Both the position numbers and the translations under genes were made by a program. A stretch of DNA of 64,000 nucleotides from Diaporthe sp. PMI_573 (Eukaryota; Ascomycota; Sordariomycetes; Diaporthales; Diaporthaceae). The notes under the pieces were generated by a model. The model was not told the origin of the DNA. It saw only the letters and a program-made list of their open reading frames with translations, and made no database searches. The stretch spans positions 806,001 to 870,000 of the forward strand of contig JAJTUP010000022.1 of the NCBI GenBank assembly GCA_021399435.1, read 5' to 3'. Positions 44,720 through 56,399 of this stretch are shown in pieces; the first letter of the stretch is position 1; the number at the start of each line of letters is the position of its first letter.

Positions 44720-46000
44720 CTACCTAGAGTCTACTCTCCTCCGCTTGTCATCGCCGTAGCGGTCCCTCTCCCTGGAGTATTCTCTCTTTCTATCTCTGTG
44801 ATCATCACGGTCCCGTCTCGGCGACCGCGACCTGGACCGCCTCCGACCCAGTGGCATGGCATTCGCACCCTTCCCGCCGTAGTCGCCGCCCCTGTCCCCC
44901 TCCCTTTCCCCGTCCCGGTACTGGTCCCACTCGCTCCTCTTCCGCCTGGGATCGTCGTACCGGCCCCACGCGCCCGTGTCCTCGCTCTTGAGGTCCTTAT
45001 ACTTGGTGGCGCCTTTCTTGCCCAGCTTGGTCATGTCGCGCATCTGCAGCGCCTGCGGGAGAAGCTCGCGGTTGCGCACGTCGTCGGCGAAGCGCGCCCC
45101 CATGATGTCGCGCTTGTCGAGGCCCTGCGCGGCCGCCTCGTCCTGGTAGAAGGCGCCCTTGTGGAAGTACTTCTGCATGTAGCCCATCTTGCCGCGGGAC
45201 TCCTTCTCCTCGCGCTGCCGCGCGACGAGCGCCTCGTCCTCGGCCGCCCGCTCCGCCTCGCTGAGGTTCTGCCGCCGCTCCTTCTCCGCTATCTCGGCCT
45301 CCTTGGCCTCGATCGCCTCGCGCGCGCGCTTCAGCCGCTTCAGCTCCCGCAGCTTCCACGCCGCGTACTCGGCCGCCGGATCCAGGTCGTCCGTGTCGTC
45401 CACCTCCTCGTCGGACCCCTCGTCGTCGTCCCAGTGCTTCTTGCCCGCGGCCCGCGCCGCCAGGTCCTTCTGGATCTGCTCCTCGACAATCGCGTCCGCC
45501 TCGGCGCGCCGCTTGGCCTCCTCCTCCTCCTCTTTTTTTGCTGGGTCCTCTTCTTGTTTCGAGCGGTTGGCTTTGGATATGAATTTAGGCCGCACCATCA
45601 GCCGCCTTGGGGCCTCCTCCTCCTCGCTGCTCTCCTCCTCTGATGAGGATTCATCCTCGCTGCCGCTTTCTTCTTCCTCCTCCCCGCTGTCTCCGTCATC
45701 GTCCTCGGTGACGAAACCCTCCTCTTTTGCTTTGCGCTCGATCTCGGCGCGCTGTTTCGCTGCTGCTAGCTTCTTCGCCTCGTCGCTTGCCCTGTTGGCG
45801 CTGCTGTTTGTGCTGATGATGCGCCCTGCGCTGGGCACTTTTGGCGGTGGCGCGATGGCGCGCTTCTTTGGTGGTTCGGGCTTCACTTCTTGTTCGGCGC
45901 CGCTGTCGTCGGAGTCGGAGGATGATGATCCTCCCGCTGCTTTGCCGGCGAAATGGCGTCCCGGCCGGACGGGGTTCGCAGTCATGCGTTTTGGAGGCAT
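44720..46000 (-). CDS. MFAP1-type spliceosomal protein
   Basis: A 426-residue single-exon frame with ATG at 46000 (MPPKRMTANPV). It is highly charged: acidic Ser/Glu runs at about 100-145, then a long Ala/Arg/Glu/Lys coiled coil. The conserved C-terminal MFAP1 core follows with RGKMGYMQKYFHKGAFYQDE, LGKKGATKYKDL and SEDTGAWGRYDD. The end is arginine/serine rich (RRRSRSRSPRRDRDD), as expected for a splicing factor. MFAP1 is a component of the spliceosomal B complex, next to the tri-snRNP and Prp38. The frame runs further upstream without a good start; I used the ATG that begins family-like sequence. Confidence 0.9.
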   Translation of the reverse strand: MPPKRMTANPVRPGRHFAGKAAGGSSSSDSDDSGAEQEVKPEPPKKRAIAPPPKVPSAGRIISTNSSANRASDEAKKLAAAKQRAEIERKAKEEGFVTEDDDGDSGEEEEESGSEDESSSEEESSEEEEAPRRLMVRPKFISKANRSKQEEDPAKKEEEEEAKRRAEADAIVEEQIQKDLAARAAGKKHWDDDEGSDEEVDDTDDLDPAAEYAAWKLRELKRLKRAREAIEAKEAEIAEKERRQNLSEAERAAEDEALVARQREEKESRGKMGYMQKYFHKGAFYQDEAAAQGLDKRDIMGARFADDVRNRELLPQALQMRDMTKLGKKGATKYKDLKSEDTGAWGRYDDPRRKRSEWDQYRDGEREGDRGGDYGGKGANAMPLGRRRSRSRSPRRDRDDHRDRKREYSRERDRYGDDKRRRVDSR

Positions 46001-46487
46001 TTTTGGAGTGGTGGTTTCGGTGAAGCGGGTGGGTGGGTGGTGAGGACCGCTTTCCAAGCCTTGAGGTTTGATGTAGAAATGTAGAAGCACTGTCACAGTG
46101 GCAGGGGTGGGAGCAGGGTTCCTAACAGCCCTGGAGCAGGTACGAAGGTACCAAGGGACCTGGCACCACGCAGTTGCTAGCGGGCATTTCAGCAACCACA
46201 TCTGTGCTCGGCCTCAGCCGGCTCAATACATGCATCTCAAAATGCTACAATTTCCTTCTTCTGTTTCAAGCGGTATCCGGGCGGTACCGGACTGAAATTT
46301 CAGGAGCATCAAAATCGCGAATGCGTGTGTCTTGTGAGTGAGTGGTGCTGCAGTACGACTCGAGAGCGTTCCGCGCATTTGGCTTGTAAGTGCAGGATTT
46401 AAGCATCAAACAAGGCCTTCGCCATTGGAGTATGTATAACAAAATACCTTGAATCTGCTGATTAAATACAAGCATTAGGAGTCTATT
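46001..46487. other. intergenic, boundary between core and accessory genes
   Basis: About 490 bp with no gene, between MFAP1 and the first P450. Housekeeping genes lie to the left and accessory genes to the right. Confidence 0.45.
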
Positions 46488-48340
46488 CTATGATGAATCG
46501 GACACTATGGCACTTTTTGTGGCTTTGACCATCAAATTGGATTCGATGAAAGCCCCGTAGCTGAGAATCTCGCTCGGACGCCAGGGTTCTCGTAGCTGCA
46601 TGTCGAAAGCTCGGAAAACCTTCGAGATGTCCTGTGGTCAGCATCAAGTCACATTAAGTTCTGCTGCTTACAACTGCTCAAGGAGTGTGGAGAGATACAA
46701 GCTAGTGGAACGACTAACCTCGAAGACAACCTTATTAATCTCCATAAGCGCGATAGACTTGCCGAGACACATCCACTGCCCATAGCCGAACGCGAGTTCT
46801 ATGTCACGCTCCATCTGCTTCCGGCGCTTGTCGTCTAGCTCCATGAGTCGCTCTGGGCGGTATAGCTCTGCGTCCGGGCCGAAGAGCTTCGTCGAGCGTG
46901 TGATGGCGGAGAGGTTGGTTCCAATGGCGGTGCCGCCGGGGACGTACTGACCCAGGATGGTCTCGCCTCCCTTGGGTACTACCTTGGGTATGAAGCCCAG
47001 GAGGGGAGGCCGCATACGAATCGCCTCATATATGACAGCCTGGGACCTGTATTAGAACTAGTACGTATCGCCCCTCGAGGACGGACATCTGCTTGGGCCA
47101 GCTCTCACCTGGAGATAGGGGAGCTTTTTGGATTCGGAGAAGGTTATGGGGTTTGAAACCCTGCCTTCTCGCACGGCTGTGTGAATCTCATCCTTGAGTT
47201 TCTGATAGACGAGTGGGCATGTCATAACGTGGAGTAGGGATGATCGGATTACAGATGCTGTGGTCTCGGTTCCGGCAACGATCATAAATAGACCCTCCGT
47301 TTCGCACTCAACCTGATTGAGCCCGTGCTTAATCATTGAGCCCTCGTGTCTCGTCAGCATCTTCTTACTCCGGCAGTGACGGTCAATTGCTTACAAGCAT
47401 GTCCTGCTGAGGCTTGGCGTCGGGACGAAACCGCAGACCAACGTAGTGGTTAGCAACGCTGTCAGCCAAGGGAATTAGCCTTTGATCTCTGGGAAAACAC
47501 GCTCAGGAAATGTTTCGTCCCTGTTACTCACCCCATCAGCGCACCAAAACCAGCCTTGTCCGTCGGCTTAGGACCGAGCAACTTCAGAAAGAGCGGCGAG
47601 AACAACGTGTTTCTTATCCATGGGATATCCGCACACGTCGACATCTGGGGCCACAAATCGTGCAGGCTGCGCAGAAATCCATAATGGTCCTTTTCCTCCC
47701 TTAGGTACCCGAATTCCTTTCCAAAAGCAAGACGCGTGATGACATCTAACGTGAAGTAGTTGCTTGTGTGCCCAAGATCCAGCAGAGGCGGCACCGGTGC
47801 GTCTGGAGTAGCAGTGGTATATCTAGTCTCAAGAACGTCGAGCAATGTCTTGAGCACGCTGTTTATGCCCTCCTCGAGATCAGGTGTCTCCCGGCCGCTG
47901 TACGCGGATATAGTCCGAGACTTGGCTCGCTTGTGCTCTTGGGGGTCCAGAAGGCTGAAAAGATCGTCATGATACGGGTTGAACTTTCCAGTGATGTAGA
48001 ACGGATCCCGATGCCAGGTGCTGTTTGTGCCGTTGACCATCCTCATAACCTCCACATCGTCTGAGACCAGTTCATTGGGGCCAACGCGAACCAAGGGTCC
48101 GCGACTTTTGTGCAGCTCCCTGTGTATCCAGTATTGCTTTCCCGAGTACGTTGTCTTTCCGAGCCACAAGTAAGAGAAGTGGGCTGTCCATGACGCAGCT
48201 GGAAAGGCCCTCAGGCGGTTCCAAGTGTAAATTGCCGTGACGACGTACGAAAGTGTGCAGAACACAGCGCCAACAAAGATCACCGTTGTCCAGCTCGTCG
48301 TCGAGAGGCTCGACGCGATCTGCTCTCGGAGTGAAGCCAT
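46488..48340 (-). CDS. cytochrome P450 (pisatin-demethylase-like), candidate ABA-cluster enzyme
   Basis: Exons on the minus strand are 48340-47532, 47458-47395, 47342-47109, 47039-46719 and 46631-46488, giving 523 residues with all phases correct. The N terminus has a membrane anchor at about 17-39. The joins rebuild family text: DML|GSMIKHGLNQ and LPYLQ|AVIYEAIRMRPP. The I-helix is MIVAGTETTAS, the K-helix ExxR is EAIR, PERL follows, and the heme loop is FGYGQWMCLG with Cys460. P450s of this group oxidise small hydrophobic substrates at the ER. It is divergent from the ABA3-like gene over 1.13 kb, which suggests co-regulation. Unusually, the heme loop has Gln-Trp where an arginine is expected at one of these two positions. 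Confidence 0.9.
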
Positions 48341-49470
48341 ACTGCCAATGGTGCAGACTTACGCAAGGATGCGAGAGTTAGGACCGGCGTCTAAGGTCAC
48401 TCTGGCGACAACAATGTCCACATATAGTATATTTAAAGCTATAGAATCACAGGCCCACAATACGTAGAAGATTATTATAAAGTTGATTCATCTCTCAGAA
48501 TTAACAGTATGTGCTACAGTCGTTGTATAAAAGTGTATTCCATATTTAAGAATTCAGTCTAGGTTTTAGTTCCATATCGATGAAGGGGCTGTCGTCGACT
48601 GACCATCTAGGGCTCAGTGACCACCTTGGGTCGGCCAGTAAAACCATACTGAGAGCGTACGGATGATGGGGCCCCTGGGAGTGCCCTTGGACCCGCAGCC
48701 GCAGGCTCCGACTTGGAGCACCCGGGCCGGGCTACGTTACAGCCCCGACTGGCCCCCGATTGGGTCCTGTGCAGACAGAAGTAGCTTCGCTCCTTTCAAA
48801 GCCGCTACAGACCCCTGAAGAGGAAGCAATGACTTTACGCCAGGATAAATATGGAGGATCCACCAGAGAAGGGTGGCCTTGAATGGATTAGAGCGGAGGA
48901 AGCTGACGACTACAACTCGCTGCACTGACAGCTTCGGCTTACTGTCAGTATCGACAAGACGTAGGCTCGGGTGTAAGAGGGACTTGGCGGAGTAACTAAT
49001 TACTTGCTTAGCGCACGGCTCGGGGTTTGCTAAATGGAGAGGACGGCTGAACCCAATCGGCCTTTTTCCTCACCTCGCATCTATCACACTGTCCTTCTTG
49101 TTCATCTCGTCGTTAGCACAGACAAAGTAACTTCCTCCTGCGAGCTCACGGACAGTATTCCTTGACTTATGCAACTGAAGTTGCTTTCACTAGCAGCAGA
49201 TTGCCCATAGTTGACCTGGTCCGTTTGAACTTGGTAATAACGATTGACATTCAATTTTCTAATCCCGGCACACGAGAAGTTTGAACCGAGAGCCCGTAAT
49301 CTCTGATGACGCAGTGAGGAGTTACAAGATGTGTACAAGCCTCGCATACGTAGGCAGCCACGTAACCGTGGTTCCTTCACTTGACATAGTATAAGTTGCG
49401 CAATCCAAAAGTTGAGTGAACCCACTCCGATCATCAATATCTTGTAACAAAACCTTCATCGTTTTCCACA
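48341..49470. promoter_or_regulatory. shared divergent promoter, P450 and ABA3-like gene
   Basis: 1130 bp between the two start codons. A TATA-like ATATAGTATATTTAAA lies at about 48423-48438, placed for the P450. A GC-rich CCCGGGCCGGGC lies near 48721-48732 and could be a zinc-cluster factor site; that is inference. No gene is seen here. Confidence 0.45.
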
Positions 49471-50766
49471 ATGCGGTCGGAAACAGTTGACAAACCAAAG
49501 CGAAACCCTCGCGTGCGTGATTCATGGTACTATCCGCCTGATATTGCACACGATCTTGATGGAATTGATTTGCCGGAGCACGTCAAAGGGGAGGTCCTCG
49601 CAACGGCGTGGGAGTACACGCGTACGGTCATTCCCCATTACACCAACTGGAATCGCTATGTGGCATTCATGCGTATCATCGTGATGGGAATCATAGCCGA
49701 GTTCAAGGGAGACCTGGTAAGTGTCCTGTCGCACGTTCCAGGCTGCTACAGCTGCCACAGTAGACTGATTGGAGGTCGTTAGCTCGACGTCACACAAGGT
49801 GACAAAGTCCTGAATTATAGCCTGGACGGCATTCTGTCAGACATGTTCAAGGGAACGCCAGGTCACGCCGAGATGGCACGCGAGTACAAGACGTTCCTGC
49901 TGGTATCAGGGGACAAGTCGAGCGGGCGGCGGGATGGGGAGCTGTTCCGAAGATACGTCAACTGTCTGGCGCACTCCCCACAGCGCTACTTCCGCATGCG
50001 TGACACCGACGCTCTGTGCCGCTTCACGATCGCCGTAGCGCTCGCGTGCCAGGACCTAGACGACGTGTGGTTCACGGATGAGCAGTTCGACTTCCTCGCC
50101 GAGCTTGGCGACACCATGTACGACGCCGTGTCCTTCTTCAAGCACCGCAGCGAGGGCGAGACCAACAGTACATTTGCGTACATGCCGCAAGACCTGCGTG
50201 TGGCGGCCTACAGGCAGTGTCGCGAGGTCCTGTGGGCACTGGATGCGGCATGGGCTGAGCGTGGGGAGTTTGCATGCGTGACGAGCTTCCTGCGATACTT
50301 CGGCGGGCCGCTCCACTTGATGATGCGGCGGTACCGCTACGTTGAGGAGGACTTGACCATGGGCCGCGAGGAAGATGTCGGTGTCGTGGACCAGACGCGC
50401 CAGCACTACAAGCTCTGGAACCGCATCGATGCCAACAAGCAGCGCAACGCGGACGACGAGGACCTGAAGAGGTATGCTCTTGTCATCGCCAACGAGAAGA
50501 AAATGCTCTTCCCACAGTGCGCAGAATGGCTGGTCACTGGTGGCGAAGGCCACTGTGACTCATGCCTATACAGATCGTCGTACGGGGCTGAGGCCACACA
50601 TCGCTTCGGTGGAGTCGAGTTGTGTGACTCCTGCAAGCCCCAGTGGCGCGAGTTTTTGCTGAGCTTTCCTGAGCGTGCCGCCAAGGTGTTTCCCGAGTTG
50701 GCGGCAACCTACAACGCGGCTATTGTCAACGTGGAAGTGCCCGTGATCAAGCCGTTGGTAGTGTAG
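49471..50766 (+). CDS. alpha-ionylideneethane synthase-like protein (BcABA3 family)
   Basis: Exons 49471-49716 and 49783-50766 (66-bp intron) encode 409 residues. Text I recognise from the BcABA3 family includes WYYPPDI (19-25), TAWEYTRTVIPHYTNWNRYV (45-64), GTPGHAEMAREYKTFLL (106-122), RRDGELFRRYVN, DLDDVWFT (173-180) and GETNSTFAYMP (207-217). Further matches are LWALDAAWA and YFGGPLHLMMRRYR (254-267). BcABA3 of Botrytis converts farnesyl diphosphate to alpha-ionylideneethane, the carbon skeleton of abscisic acid, and lacks classical terpene-synthase DDxxD motifs. Near the C terminus Cys340, Cys343, Cys363 and Cys366 form a zinc-ribbon-like CxxC...CxxC pair. Two P450s flank it, as in the ABA cluster. 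Homology is from memory of the family; the product here is inference. Confidence 0.78.
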
Positions 50767-52543
50767 GAGTACTGTGGGTTGGTGGGGCTTTCAACGTGTG
50801 GAACGGCACTTCGACACTATACATACTTATACTGTAGTACATTGCCAAGATCATTTCTGATAAAATCTACTAGAGCTATTCACGCTGCTTATGAACACAG
50901 AGGTTGATTTCCTGCAGACGTACCTTGTACAAAACAGATCCTGCTTACACCATGTTGATACCAACGTAGAGAGGGCCTTGGTCCCCTTGCTTGGCTACGG
51001 CTATAGCATAATAGGTTGAGCATTCCATATAACAGTCTGAAAAAAACAATGATGGTCTCATATCTGAGATGGTCACCAGCGTGGAACAGTGAGAGTTGCG
51101 CCCTTCTCGACCCTCCGTTTCGCAGCGCAAATTTCTCCACCATGCAATACCCAGGCTTAGAGGGTGCATTAAAGTCCACTTCTAAATAATCGATCCCACT
51201 GATACCAGGACAATTTTGTTGGCGATAACATGTATTGGTAGAGTTCCCATCCAGCCTACATGACATCAGTCACACCCACCAGGCTGCTGGATGGCTTGGT
51301 CAAGGGCTCAGGCATGTGCAGCCGACCTGGACATCGTCCGGGCACTTCGCCCGGGCAATTTACGAGTTTTTTGCTCGGGAACAGGCCACCCCCATGCAAA
51401 ATCTCTCTGACGACGCACAAGCTTGAACAGTGATCAAGGCCGAGTAGTCACAGGGATTAGCCGTTCAGGCTGGTCACCCGTCAAATGCCCGATGACCCTT
51501 TGGGTAGTTCGGGTTCTTTCGAACAATCAGGCACCTCGATCTTTATAGAACTTTTCTTAGGAAATATACTCTTTCCCTATCTGCAACTTTGAATCCAGGC
51601 ACCCAATGGCCACCGGTTTGGTAAGCGCTTGAGCCCGGATCCGAAGACCCGAAACATGAACTTTCGGTACCGGTGGCTCTCCAGTTGGTGGGTGATTCCT
51701 GGCCTCGAGTCCGGGTGTGCTAAAGTCGACAACGCGTTGGATGATTTCAAAGAAACGAGTTTTTCGGGTTTGTCGGCTGACAATAGCTGGGTCAATAGAC
51801 TCTGCACCACACAATCCATGCCTCAAGAAAGTTCCCGGGTGCTGCCAAGACATAGGAAGCTAAGGCTGGGAAGACGTACTCTACACAACAGGGCTTTGAG
51901 ACTGTCCTGCAAGATGTACGTTTTTATAGCTTACGGAGATAAGCTGTCCATCACACCCGACATAGCTGGGTACCGTGGCGGCAGCGGCCCTGCTGGTTCG
52001 TCACGGGGTGGTGCAACTACCAAAGTTACTCCGAGCCGGTTGAAAGCTGGGTGCTGAGTTACTCGGGCATCCGCATGATGACTCGCGTCACCAAGGGAGT
52101 ATAATTTAAAAAACAATAAACTAGATTCTATTTCCGAAAATCTATGTACATCAAGAATTATTTGAATAAACGTGTCCATATGTGAAATATTGAATTCAAG
52201 CCTTTTATTTTATGAATACTTTGAAGTTAGTACTGTTGTGAAGGAATTATTCAAACTCCCCGCTTGTGAAGCATGCTTGTATAAGAATTACCAAACAAGA
52301 AAGCTCCCGAGCACCCTTACCGGTATAGACCGGGCAAGCAGCAGAAGAGACTGATCAAGTTCCAATCCCGAGCAGTACCAATCGATGTGGACTTGAATAC
52401 GCATAAACAGCTCCTCGTCCTTATTTCGAGCCAGGGCGCTTTCGTAGGGCTTGGTCACTCTTGCATTGTCTTCGTCCAATGTTATCGCCCACCTTTACAA
52501 AATATCGACGGGAGCCTCCACCATCGTCACCACCGGTATTAAG
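50767..52543. other. 1.8-kb intergenic region inside the cluster
   Basis: No supported gene. Frames such as 51629-52057 are unsupported. The stretch at 52090-52280 is AT rich. It should hold the 3' UTR of the ABA3-like gene and the promoter of the second P450. Confidence 0.45.
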
Positions 52544-54418
52544 ATGGCTACCTCAAGTTCGTCTTCGTCTCTCCTCTTGGGTAGACTACCTGCAGTATTG
52601 CCTGTGGCTTCGCTCCCTCTGCTTGCAGAGACGTTTGTAGTCTTGGTAAAGACCCCGCCATGAAAGCGACAGATTCATAAGACACAGAAAACTGAATGTT
52701 TATTGCAGCTTCTCCTCAGCTTGGCTTCCCGAATTGTTTACGCAAGATTCTTTCATCCTCTAGCCAGGTTCCCGGGGCCTTTTTTCAACAGTGTGACCTC
52801 TATTCCAGCTGCCTATCTTGTGTACAAGGGCAACCAGCCCCAGGAGTTCAAGAAGCTTCACGCCAAGTATGGTTCGTTTCGCTGCTCTCTATCGCACTCA
52901 TTGTTCCAGATCGAACCCAAAAACCACCATGCTGACCTGAATTCGTGAGCGTCTAGGCCCGGTTGTGCGGACAGGACCGAATGAGCTGAGCTTCATCGGG
53001 GCGGACGCGTGGGAGGACATCTATGGTGTAAAAGTGGGATATTTTCACACCTGGAATCCGAGAGACAGGATCGAGTAGCCTTACTAACTGAGCTGGCGCT
53101 TCAGAAAGACGGTCTAAACTTTCAGAAAGATCCGGCCTGGCTCGCAGTTGTCTCACCCAAAGATGGCCAGACCGGTGTCAGTATGGCGCCTCCTGAGACG
53201 CACTCGCGTCAGCGGAATGCCTTGGGTGCTACCTTTACCAACGAGGCTCTTCTGACCCAGGAAGATATTCTTCAGCTACATACGGACAGATTAATGGAAG
53301 TGCTAAAGACACATGCCAAGGAGAACAAGGCCATTGACTTTTCCAGCTGGTGTAAGCTCTCCCCACGACGCAACCTCGTACGCAGAGCAGAAGCGACTGA
53401 CTGACCTTTCATTGCAGTCACTTACGCTACTTTCGATGTTATTGGCGATGTCATCTTCGGCGAGCCGTTTGGCTGTCTTGACAGGAGTGATGCATGCAAA
53501 TGGGCGGATGCAATCAACTCAATCTTCCAGTCAGGCGCTTGGGAGCAAGCCTTTGGTCAAATCGCGGGAGTCGGCTCGCTACTGCATAGAGCCATGGTTA
53601 AGACACTCATCCCCAGTGAGCCGAAGCAGTGGCGCCAGAAGCACCTCCAAGGCGCCATTGACAAGACAATGCGGCGGATCAAAGACGGCACTCGTTCTCA
53701 CCCTGACATGGTGGGACACATCCTCAGGAACAATAGCGTCAGGAAGGCACGCCTGTCCGAGATGGAATTGCTGCTGAATATGGTCCAATTTATCAGCGCC
53801 GGCAGCGAGACGACCGCAAGTCTGCTGACGGGCTGGGTGTACTTCCTGCTGGCCAACCCAGCGTGCTACGAGCGAGTCAAGGCAGAGGTGCGCGGTGCTT
53901 TTAAGACAAAAGAAGAGATCACCTGGGCCAGTGTTGGAAAGCTCAAGTACCTCGAGGCCACCGTCCACGAGTCCCTCCGCCTGACCTCGCCAGCTCCGTG
54001 CAACCAGCACCGTGTCGTCCCTCCCCAGGGCCAGGGCAACGTCATCGACGGCCACTTCGTGCCCGCCGGCACGACCGTGGCCGTCGCGCCTTGGGTTGCC
54101 GAGCGTCACCCGGACAACTTCACGGACCCGGAGAAGTTCGAGCCCGAACGCTGGCTGGGCAACCCGCGGTACAAGAACGACAAACTGCACGCCTCCCAGC
54201 CGTTTGGCCTGGGCGTCCGCGCCTGTGTCGGCAAGAACCTGTCGTACTTTGAGGCCCGCCTCATTATGGGCAACCTTCTGTGGCGGTTTGACTTGGATTT
54301 TGACCAGAGCGAGTTCGCCAAGGCGGAGCGCAAGAGGTGGGACGACACGGACATGTTGGTTTGGCATGTGTGGGTCAAGCCGGCAATGCTTGTCCAGTTG
54401 AAGGAGCGCAAGGTTTAA
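52544..54418 (+). CDS. cytochrome P450 (CYP65-like), candidate ABA-cluster enzyme
   Basis: Exons 52544-52645, 52709-52871, 52957-53033, 53105-53351 and 53418-54418 encode 529 residues. The third intron was placed at AAA|GTGGGA because it gives DIYGVKKDGLNFQKDP and a 71-bp intron with a CTAAC branch site; a GGT|GTAA-type donor eight bases earlier breaks the frame there. Family text includes FPGPFFNSV, GPVVRTGPNELSF, FDVIGDVIFGEPFG, the I-helix ISAGSETTAS, the K-helix ESLR, EPERWLG and the canonical heme loop FGLGVRACVG with Cys466. The N terminus carries a membrane anchor. It resembles CYP65-type sesquiterpenoid hydroxylases (trichothecene C-15 hydroxylase-like), fitting oxidation of the ABA3-type product. 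It may instead belong to another pathway. Confidence 0.88.
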
Positions 54419-54828: not shown

Positions 54829-54921
54829 TGTTGGAATATTCTAGACTAAGTGTATTATTAATGTATTAATAATAGGGAATATCTTTATCCCTATAACTCG
54901 AATATATATAGGGGGCCTCTC
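54829..54921. repeat. left terminal inverted repeat (93 bp, inverted LTR start)
   Basis: Identical, as reverse complement, to 56307-56399; identity ends at CCTCTC, after which the two copies diverge. It encodes the last residues and stop codon of the gag frame on the minus strand. Confidence 0.92.
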
Positions 54922-55749
54922 TGAATCTTCTGGAGACTCAATACTAGCTAAAGCAGCCAGTAGTTTCTCTTGAAGTTTCTCTCTTTTCTCACGAGAGAGA
55001 TTCTTGAGGTTATAGTTGTTTTTCTTTTCTTTTTCCCTTTTCTTTATTCGCCAGCTCTGAGGAGCTTTTTCAGGGAAGAGAAAATAACAACTTTCTCGAG
55101 TGTGTCCCCTCAGTTTACAGTGAGGGCATATAGTAGAGTTTCCAGCTCCCTTTTTACCCTTTATATATAGGGCTTTTTCAGAGGGCTTATTTAGTCTCCC
55201 TCTGCTTTCGTCTAAAAGACTCGTGAAGAGAGATTCTAGGGTATATGCCTCTGGGTCTTGTCTGAGAGACTGGGTTATATTCTGAATAAATCCAGAATAC
55301 TCGTCGTCTAGGCTATTTAATACCCAGCTTATAGTAACTTGTTTTGGAAGCTCTATTTTGTTTCTTTTCAGCTCTTCGAGAAGAAGCTTTATTTTAGTTA
55401 TATAGGCTTCCATAGACTCAAAGTCTTCAAGTCGAGTGTTAAAAAACTCTCGGCAGACAAGAAACTGGCTAGTAAAACCAGAAGGGTTATAGTGGGCTTT
55501 TAAAGCTTCCCAGGCTTCTTGGGCACTATTAAGGTCCTTTATAAACATAATAGGACCAGGCCCACACATCAGCTTAATATTGCTGATAGCACGCTTATTC
55601 TGGGTAACATTTAGGCCTATAAAAGGCAAATCTGTATTTCCAGAGGTAGCGTTATCTCTCTCCATCCAGGCAAGGAGTTTAATACTCCAATAGACATAGT
55701 TATCGGCCCCAGAAAGGATAGGGACACCAAACTTGTCAGGGGTAGCCAT
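54841..55749 (-). CDS. Ty1/copia Gag-like protein
   Basis: A 302-residue frame with ATG at 55749. The N-terminal part has GADNYVYWSIKLLAWMERDN and SAQEAWEALKAHYNPSG, the UBN2/copia gag pattern. The zinc knuckle is CPHCKLRGHTRESC. After a lysine-rich stretch, the final 26 residues are encoded by the terminal inverted repeat, so the natural end of Gag has been replaced. No protease, integrase or reverse transcriptase follows. The frame is intact with no stops, and the element shows no sign of RIP. It could supply coat protein only. Confidence 0.85.
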   Translation of the reverse strand: MATPDKFGVPILSGADNYVYWSIKLLAWMERDNATSGNTDLPFIGLNVTQNKRAISNIKLMCGPGPIMFIKDLNSAQEAWEALKAHYNPSGFTSQFLVCREFFNTRLEDFESMEAYITKIKLLLEELKRNKIELPKQVTISWVLNSLDDEYSGFIQNITQSLRQDPEAYTLESLFTSLLDESRGRLNKPSEKALYIKGKKGAGNSTICPHCKLRGHTRESCYFLFPEKAPQSWRIKKREKEKKNNYNLKNLSREKREKLQEKLLAALASIESPEDSERPPIYIRVIGIKIFPIINTLIIHLV

Positions 55750-56246
55750 AGTGGAGGTTTTGAGGAGGATAGAGGTAGGTAGTGTTTGTAGTGGCTTGAA
55801 AATTCGGAGAATGGTACTTTTCAAGATTTGAAAATAGGAGGATAAAGAGCAGAAGAAGGGCTTTCGAATGGTATAGTTTATGTGTGTGTAGGATGGATAT
55901 TCGTTGAGAAACGGCTGAGTGTTTTGGTTGGCGAAGGTGGTGTTAAAGGGCAGTCACAGGGCTTGGAGACACGTCTGACGAGGTGACGTTGAATCGAGCG
56001 ATCTGGTTGGTCGAGAGCTTATCGATTAGCCCAAAAGGGTAATTCCGTAGGATTCCTCGGGTCGTTCGGCTCTTCTGGCTGTGTTGGGTCGTTTTGCGTG
56101 GTGGACTGGGTCGTCGAAGGTTCGAGAAGTGGTGTAAGTCAGGGGTGTCACGTGACTAGAGATTCTTCTGATTGGGTGCAGCGTTGGAAAAAGTGGGGCA
56201 GATGGTCTGTGCTCAGGGGCTTTCGGAGCAGCCGGAGGTCATAACC

Positions 56247-56399
56247 TGTTGAATTGTATGCCAATAGTGCTTATATTCAGACTATTCTAGCTCCGTGTAA
56301 GTGGGCGAGAGGCCCCCTATATATATTCGAGTTATAGGGATAAAGATATTCCCTATTATTAATACATTAATAATACACTTAGTCTAGAATATTCCAACA
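56247..56399 (-). repeat. copia-type LTR, 153 bp
   Basis: Read on the minus strand it starts TGTTGGAATATTC at 56399 and ends TTCAACA at 56247. GGTTATGACCTCCGG follows, resembling the copia-class primer-binding site (half of initiator tRNA-Met in Drosophila copia). About 500 bp of leader then precede the gag start. Confidence 0.7.

Follow-up and report, generated by a model that had tools for sequence, protein, structure and literature searches.

A putative abscisic acid-type gene cluster of ABA1-, ABA2- and ABA3-type genes in Diaporthe sp. PMI_573

Introduction

In Botrytis cinerea, published accounts of the abscisic acid (ABA) pathway describe four steps: ABA3 makes alpha-ionylideneethane from farnesyl diphosphate (FPP), ABA1 takes this to alpha-ionylideneacetic acid, ABA2 leads on to 1',4'-trans-ABA-diol, and ABA4 oxidises the diol to ABA (PMC6876084, PMC11210036). 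The same accounts describe bcaba4 as not essential, its deletion leaving the diol and traces of ABA, so a cluster of ABA1-ABA3 should yield the diol. 1',4'-trans-ABA-diol is itself described as active on plants. In higher plants it reportedly does not serve as a precursor of ABA (PMC11210036), so that its conversion there cannot be assumed. Similar gene sets are already known beyond grey mould, from some anthracnose fungi, and a relative is reported in Diaporthe: the ABA-BOT clusters of Colletotrichum tofieldiae, C. incanum and Diaporthe helianthi are described as holding ABA1-ABA3 without ABA4 (PMC10482981).

Results

The window, meaning the whole 64,000-nucleotide stretch analysed here, spans positions 806001-870000 of contig C133 in the 83.7-Mb genome of Diaporthe sp. 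PMI_573. A sequence-only reading, silent on the ABA4-less clusters already described (including that of D. helianthi; PMC10482981), had placed a P450, a BcABA3-like synthase and a second P450 at 46488..54418. All three genes are found there, so that ABA1-type, ABA3-type and ABA2-type genes lie inside 8 kb.

The synthase gene (49471..50766, plus strand) encodes 409 residues in two exons, 49471-49716 and 49783-50766, separated by a single 66-nt intron; one of the ten AG acceptors tried keeps the frame open. Its product is the NCBI protein 'BcABA3 [Diaporthe sp. PMI_573]' (P0001; 100% identity over 100% of the length). It is 63% identical to BcABA3 over 388 residues, a homology spanning most of the length, with E 1.8e-173 in the protein database search, and it falls in the ABA3 family tree, as the likeness to BcABA3 first suggested from sequence would have it. 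Neither of the two pieces searched matches a Pfam family. The protein matches the fold of the solved ABA3 enzymes (8ZAC-8ZAG: RuABA3, BcABA3 and bacterial SkABA3), with identities from 35% (SkABA3) to 64% (BcABA3). Tree and solved-structure matches together support its assignment to the fungal ABA3 family. All 61 family-invariant residues are common to the synthase and BcABA3, a partly circular count because both proteins are in the alignment. Compared with most of the other members listed, the clade of the window synthase is distinct at 12 positions, including residues 161, 199, 250 and 259 near conserved motifs, so an identical product to that of BcABA3 is not assured. Conversion of FPP to alpha-ionylideneethane is a putative activity, carried over from the B. 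cinerea enzyme.

To the left of the synthase and divergent from it lies P450-A (46488..48340, minus strand; 519 aa), which runs from an ATG at 48340 to a stop at 46488 through five exons (48340-47532, 47458-47395, 47342-47109, 47039-46719 and 46619-46488) and four introns. To the right, 1,777 bp from the synthase and on the same strand, lies P450-B (52544..54418, plus strand; 527 aa; exons 52544-52645, 52709-52871, 52957-53027, 53105-53351 and 53418-54418). For its first three introns we picked splice sites by judgement among 160 open combinations, which makes the N-terminal third of the protein less sure. This arrangement, a synthase divergent from one P450 and followed by another, is that first read from the letters. 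Pfam p450 matches two pieces of P450-A (E 5.7e-6 and 8.3e-16) and the last exon of P450-B (E 9.7e-57), and both proteins keep a heme-binding motif. The exon numbers agree with those described for B. cinerea strain TB-3-H8, where bcaba1 has five exons and four introns and bcaba2 five exons (PMC4227169).

P450-A is 69% identical to a Cryphonectria protein, 67% to C. incanum and 60% to the 509-aa B. cinerea protein P0127, which has the reported length of BcABA1 (E 2.3e-204, the query being a 529-aa draft model of P450-A). P450-B is 73% identical to C. incanum and 51-52% to P0250, a Botryotinia calthae protein of 527 aa, the reported length of BcABA2. These B. cinerea and Botryotinia references were picked by length, rank and the names of neighbours rather than from a reference record. 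No database protein is at least 90% identical to either P450 among the best 120 of 521 matches for P450-A and the best 120 of 229 for P450-B, from a capped set of candidates, where identity peaks at 68% and 87%, respectively; the two gene models therefore stand without independent support. Chance resemblance is ruled out by the E-values, among them those against BcABA3 and P0127.

The 1,130 bp between P450-A and the synthase (48341..49470), defined by position only, may be a shared promoter region. To the left, an MFAP1-type gene outside the cluster (44723..46213, minus strand, a stop-to-stop frame; Pfam MFAP1 E 5.6e-67) is among frames beyond P450-A with MFAP1, DNA polymerase alpha subunit B, CRAL-TRIO and TRAPP domains. 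Transporter, transcription-factor and dehydrogenase families are absent from the 15 window pieces scanned with Pfam, out of 124 frames listed. To the right, also outside the cluster, a copia-type retroelement piece (54829..56399), recognised by domain match, repeat family and inverted arms, starts 410 bp past P450-B and carries a gag-like frame (54844-55953, minus strand; Retrotran_gag_2 E 6.6e-17). Its 93-nt arms are perfectly inverted, one end resembles part of an inverted LTR, and TTGCT flanks both sides as a target-site duplication would; related sequence lies at many genome sites (85 matches listed). An element so close behind P450-B would suit a cluster that is silent or decaying and makes no product. 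We regard this as very improbable: each of the three frames is uninterrupted and has usable splice sites, both P450s retain the heme-binding motif, and close homologs of all three genes occur in several fungi.

In B. cinerea the set is completed by ABA4. Our ABA4 query was a short-chain dehydrogenase (SDR) that a C. tanaceti protein carries joined to its ABA2 part, a putative ABA4 by position only. None of its 102 genome matches falls in the window, and none of the 15 window pieces scanned with Pfam has an SDR domain, in agreement with the earlier remark that the window holds no ABA4-like dehydrogenase. The genome search for an ABA4-like SDR, also proposed then, did return SDRs, all of them elsewhere, at about 35-48% identity over longer pieces and up to 62% over short ones; the top two-exon match is C163:703601-704234 (44-48%). 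The locus therefore lies outside the four-gene ABA1-ABA4 type of B. cinerea, no ABA4 short-chain dehydrogenase having been found in the cluster. It also differs from ABA-BOT clusters in that no botrydial-type class I terpene synthase adjoins ABA1-3: none of 23 genome PF19086 matches is in the window, and the closest one listed on its contig is about 0.78 Mb off. A terpene synthase piece on contig C13 finds terpene cyclase 6 (7w5f) as its best solved structure, with presilphiperfolanol synthase second (E 9e-5).

Maximum-likelihood trees place the window ABA3, ABA1 and ABA2 proteins in corresponding clades, each supported at 100/100, and the P450s are thereby tied to ABA1-type and ABA2-type enzymes, as their assignment to the ABA pathway had anticipated. 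All three clades hold Aureobasidium, Colletotrichum liriopes or incanum, and Fulvia and/or Dothistroma; Zasmidium joins in ABA2, Cryphonectria in ABA1 and two unnamed database rows in ABA3. The window ABA3 is 76% identical to that of C. liriopes. Because the clades correspond, the three genes appear to travel as a unit, although branching within the clades is weakly supported in places and varies between genes. The trees sample 52, 39 and 33 of the 120 listed matches for ABA3, ABA1 and ABA2, mostly rows with species names, together with rows from the same genome and, for ABA3, one bacterial locus. The ABA3 bootstrap is not quite settled, and the intended outgroup of the ABA2 tree did not form one group. 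Two relatives are likely misnamed: P0029, an ABA3-type protein of Gnomoniopsis labelled 'Molybdenum cofactor sulfurase', and P0247, an ABA2-type P450 of Cadophora labelled 'Zeaxanthin epoxidase'.

ABA3 and ABA1 relatives are apparently on the same contig in at least ten fungi, read by eye from the matching longest contig: C. cereale, Plenodomus, Dactylonectria, Cylindrodendrum, Gnomoniopsis, Pyrenophora tritici-repentis, Pseudocercospora fuligena, Parastagonospora, Apiospora hydei and Apiospora sp. TS-2023a. A shared large contig is not proof of adjacency. Better evidence comes from C. cereale, with all three genes on a 27 kb contig, and from consecutive or near locus tags in Plenodomus, Cylindrodendrum, Apiospora TS-2023a and Gaeumannomyces. 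These groupings support P450-A and P450-B as predicted relatives of ABA1-type and ABA2-type enzymes that are apparently ABA3-linked in other fungi.

The membership of the clades also bears on the product. Fulvia, Dothistroma and Zasmidium share a family or order with Cercospora. That genus is described as producing ABA through a gamma-ionylidene route, with no gene known for it (PMC12001456), and the 12 clade-specific residues, four of them beside conserved motifs, would fit a cluster that makes another ionylideneethane-type compound, such as the Cercospora gamma isomer or a side product, with P450s adapted to it. We consider this improbable. The family-invariant residues are retained in the window synthase, and a Cercospora name is absent from the 120 ABA3 matches listed, many of them nameless. 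For the gamma route of Sanghuangporus, a non-ABA3 cyclase, AncA, is proposed (PMC12001456), and C. tofieldiae ABA2 and ABA3 are described as affecting host ABA responses (PMC10482981), its relatives C. liriopes and C. incanum being in the window clade.

The genome contains three ABA3-type synthase loci: that of the window, C1:1571241-1572445 and C2:396268-397353. On C1 (1562-1575 kb; L027, L028) an ABA2-like P450 (minus strand), an ABA1-type P450 (minus strand; NCBI P0158) and an ABA3-type synthase (plus strand) form a second ABA-like cluster, adjoined by a DUF3425-domain gene and a GRE2-like reductase gene. The latter, of the NAD-epimerase type (L027:8148-8981), differs from the classical SDR used as ABA4 query in matching the Epimerase family; its nearest solved relatives include GRE2-like reductases, and it could replace ABA4. 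On C2 (396-400 kb; L030, L031) a third ABA3-type synthase has as its neighbour an ABA1-type P450 with 89% identity to D. batatas. Of the 61 invariant residues this synthase retains 57, and two of the four exceptions fall at the cut end of the model; its 'DLDD' stretch is unlike that of the other copies, so its product may differ. Further P450s lie on contigs where no ABA3 match was found: an ABA1-like one at C163:1339317-1340835 and ABA2-like ones at C90:1041201-1042857 and C199:216800-217816. The genome P450 search, scored for best candidates only, listed P450-B and missed P450-A, so the counts from that search are lower bounds. Of the listed frames, 10 of 62 at C1 and 10 of 40 at C2 were scanned with Pfam.

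Single-exon identity to the Botryotinia ABA2-type protein is 59% for C1, 58% for the unlinked C90 copy, which is absent from the ABA2 tree, 53% for the window and 50% for C199. As the C1 and C90 exons are closer to the reference than P450-B, a strict one-to-one ABA2 reading is weakened. C1 pairs with Gnomoniopsis in the ABA3 (82%) and ABA1 (78%) trees, but its ABA2-like P450 falls together with Lizonia, Pyrenophora teres and the C199 P450, and these placements do not establish simple vertical descent for C1. In a 22-row set, grouping the window with C1 and Gnomoniopsis, as a recent duplication of C1 would require, was rejected (AU p 3.8e-5, an indicative value because the group was chosen with a first tree already in view and the C1 row comes from a joined model). 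In the same set, the 11 Sordariomycete rows were rejected as one group (AU p 4.5e-40).

A history without transfer between fungal classes would make the window clade an old ABA module that descended vertically beside other types and disappeared from most lineages. In the ABA2 tree the Dothideomycetes Zasmidium, Aureobasidium, Dothistroma and Fulvia form one group (95/94) that excludes Diaporthe and C. incanum, the pattern expected of vertical descent, and Cryphonectria, a member of the Diaporthales, has an ABA1 of the window clade. Against this, the window ABA2 is about 74% identical to that of Aureobasidium, nearly the value for C1 ABA1 and its counterpart in Gnomoniopsis, which is of the same order as Diaporthe, in an uncalibrated comparison. 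Published ABA-cluster trees already indicated transfer (PMC10482981). Vertical descent is in our judgement a real possibility, if not one to count on.

ABA3 homologs also occur in bacteria (L022-L026: Umezawaea, Actinoplanes, Amorphoplanes and a deltaproteobacterial MAG). P450 sequence lies just upstream on the same strand in L022, L023 and L024; in L026 a P450-like stretch lies on the opposite strand, and in L025 no P450 sequence was found and a terpene synthase-type frame is nearby. Two P450 frames precede the synthase in Umezawaea (L022), recalling the fungal set at only about 25-30% identity to fungal P450s. Pfam scans covered 10 frames from three of these five loci.

Discussion

We consider it likely that the window holds an ABA1-ABA2-ABA3 cluster of the C. 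tofieldiae / C. incanum type, without ABA4, that makes the diol as proposed, and at the level of gene families the comparisons support reading it as a putative ABA-type cluster. It shares with B. cinerea bcaba1-4 an ABA3-type synthase and ABA1- and ABA2-type P450s. In contrast to that cluster, ABA3 is divergent from ABA1 and followed by ABA2, no ABA4 was found, and the proteins, at about 52-63% identity, form a separate clade. With the ABA-BOT clusters it has in common ABA1-ABA3 without ABA4, and clades that also take in ABA1 (67%) and ABA2 (73%) from C. incanum and the ABA3 of C. liriopes (76%); C. tofieldiae, D. helianthi and C. incanum ABA3 are likened by described composition.

By transfer from the B. 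cinerea enzymes, the ABA3-type synthase would cyclise farnesyl diphosphate to alpha-ionylideneethane, and P450-A (ABA1) would oxidise this to alpha-ionylideneacetic acid. P450-B (ABA2) would lead on to 1',4'-trans-ABA-diol as the cluster's own end product, from which ABA could arise through an unlinked dehydrogenase or by non-enzymatic oxidation. The three-gene set very probably builds ABA or its immediate precursor. The three genes may be co-regulated and the product may act on plants.

The Diaporthe genome has two related sets in addition, of different ancestry as judged from their sequences. A broader proposal is that the window carries a three-gene module portable across fungal classes and ABA4-less throughout, its end product being not ABA but 1',4'-trans-ABA-diol or an isomer of the gamma type, plant-active itself or after oxidation, in a strain with two ABA3-type loci of other descent. 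We offer this tentatively and think it rather unlikely as a whole; if true, one fungus may make several ABA-like signals.

Published work on C. tofieldiae strains links a putative ABA-BOT gene set to a switch between harm and benefit toward the plant (PMC10482981), and fungi can steer plant responses with ABA-type hormones. Three ABA3-type loci of different descent in one Diaporthe genome would allow a direct test of whether ABA4-less clusters release ABA-diol, and of whether different loci serve different lifestyles.
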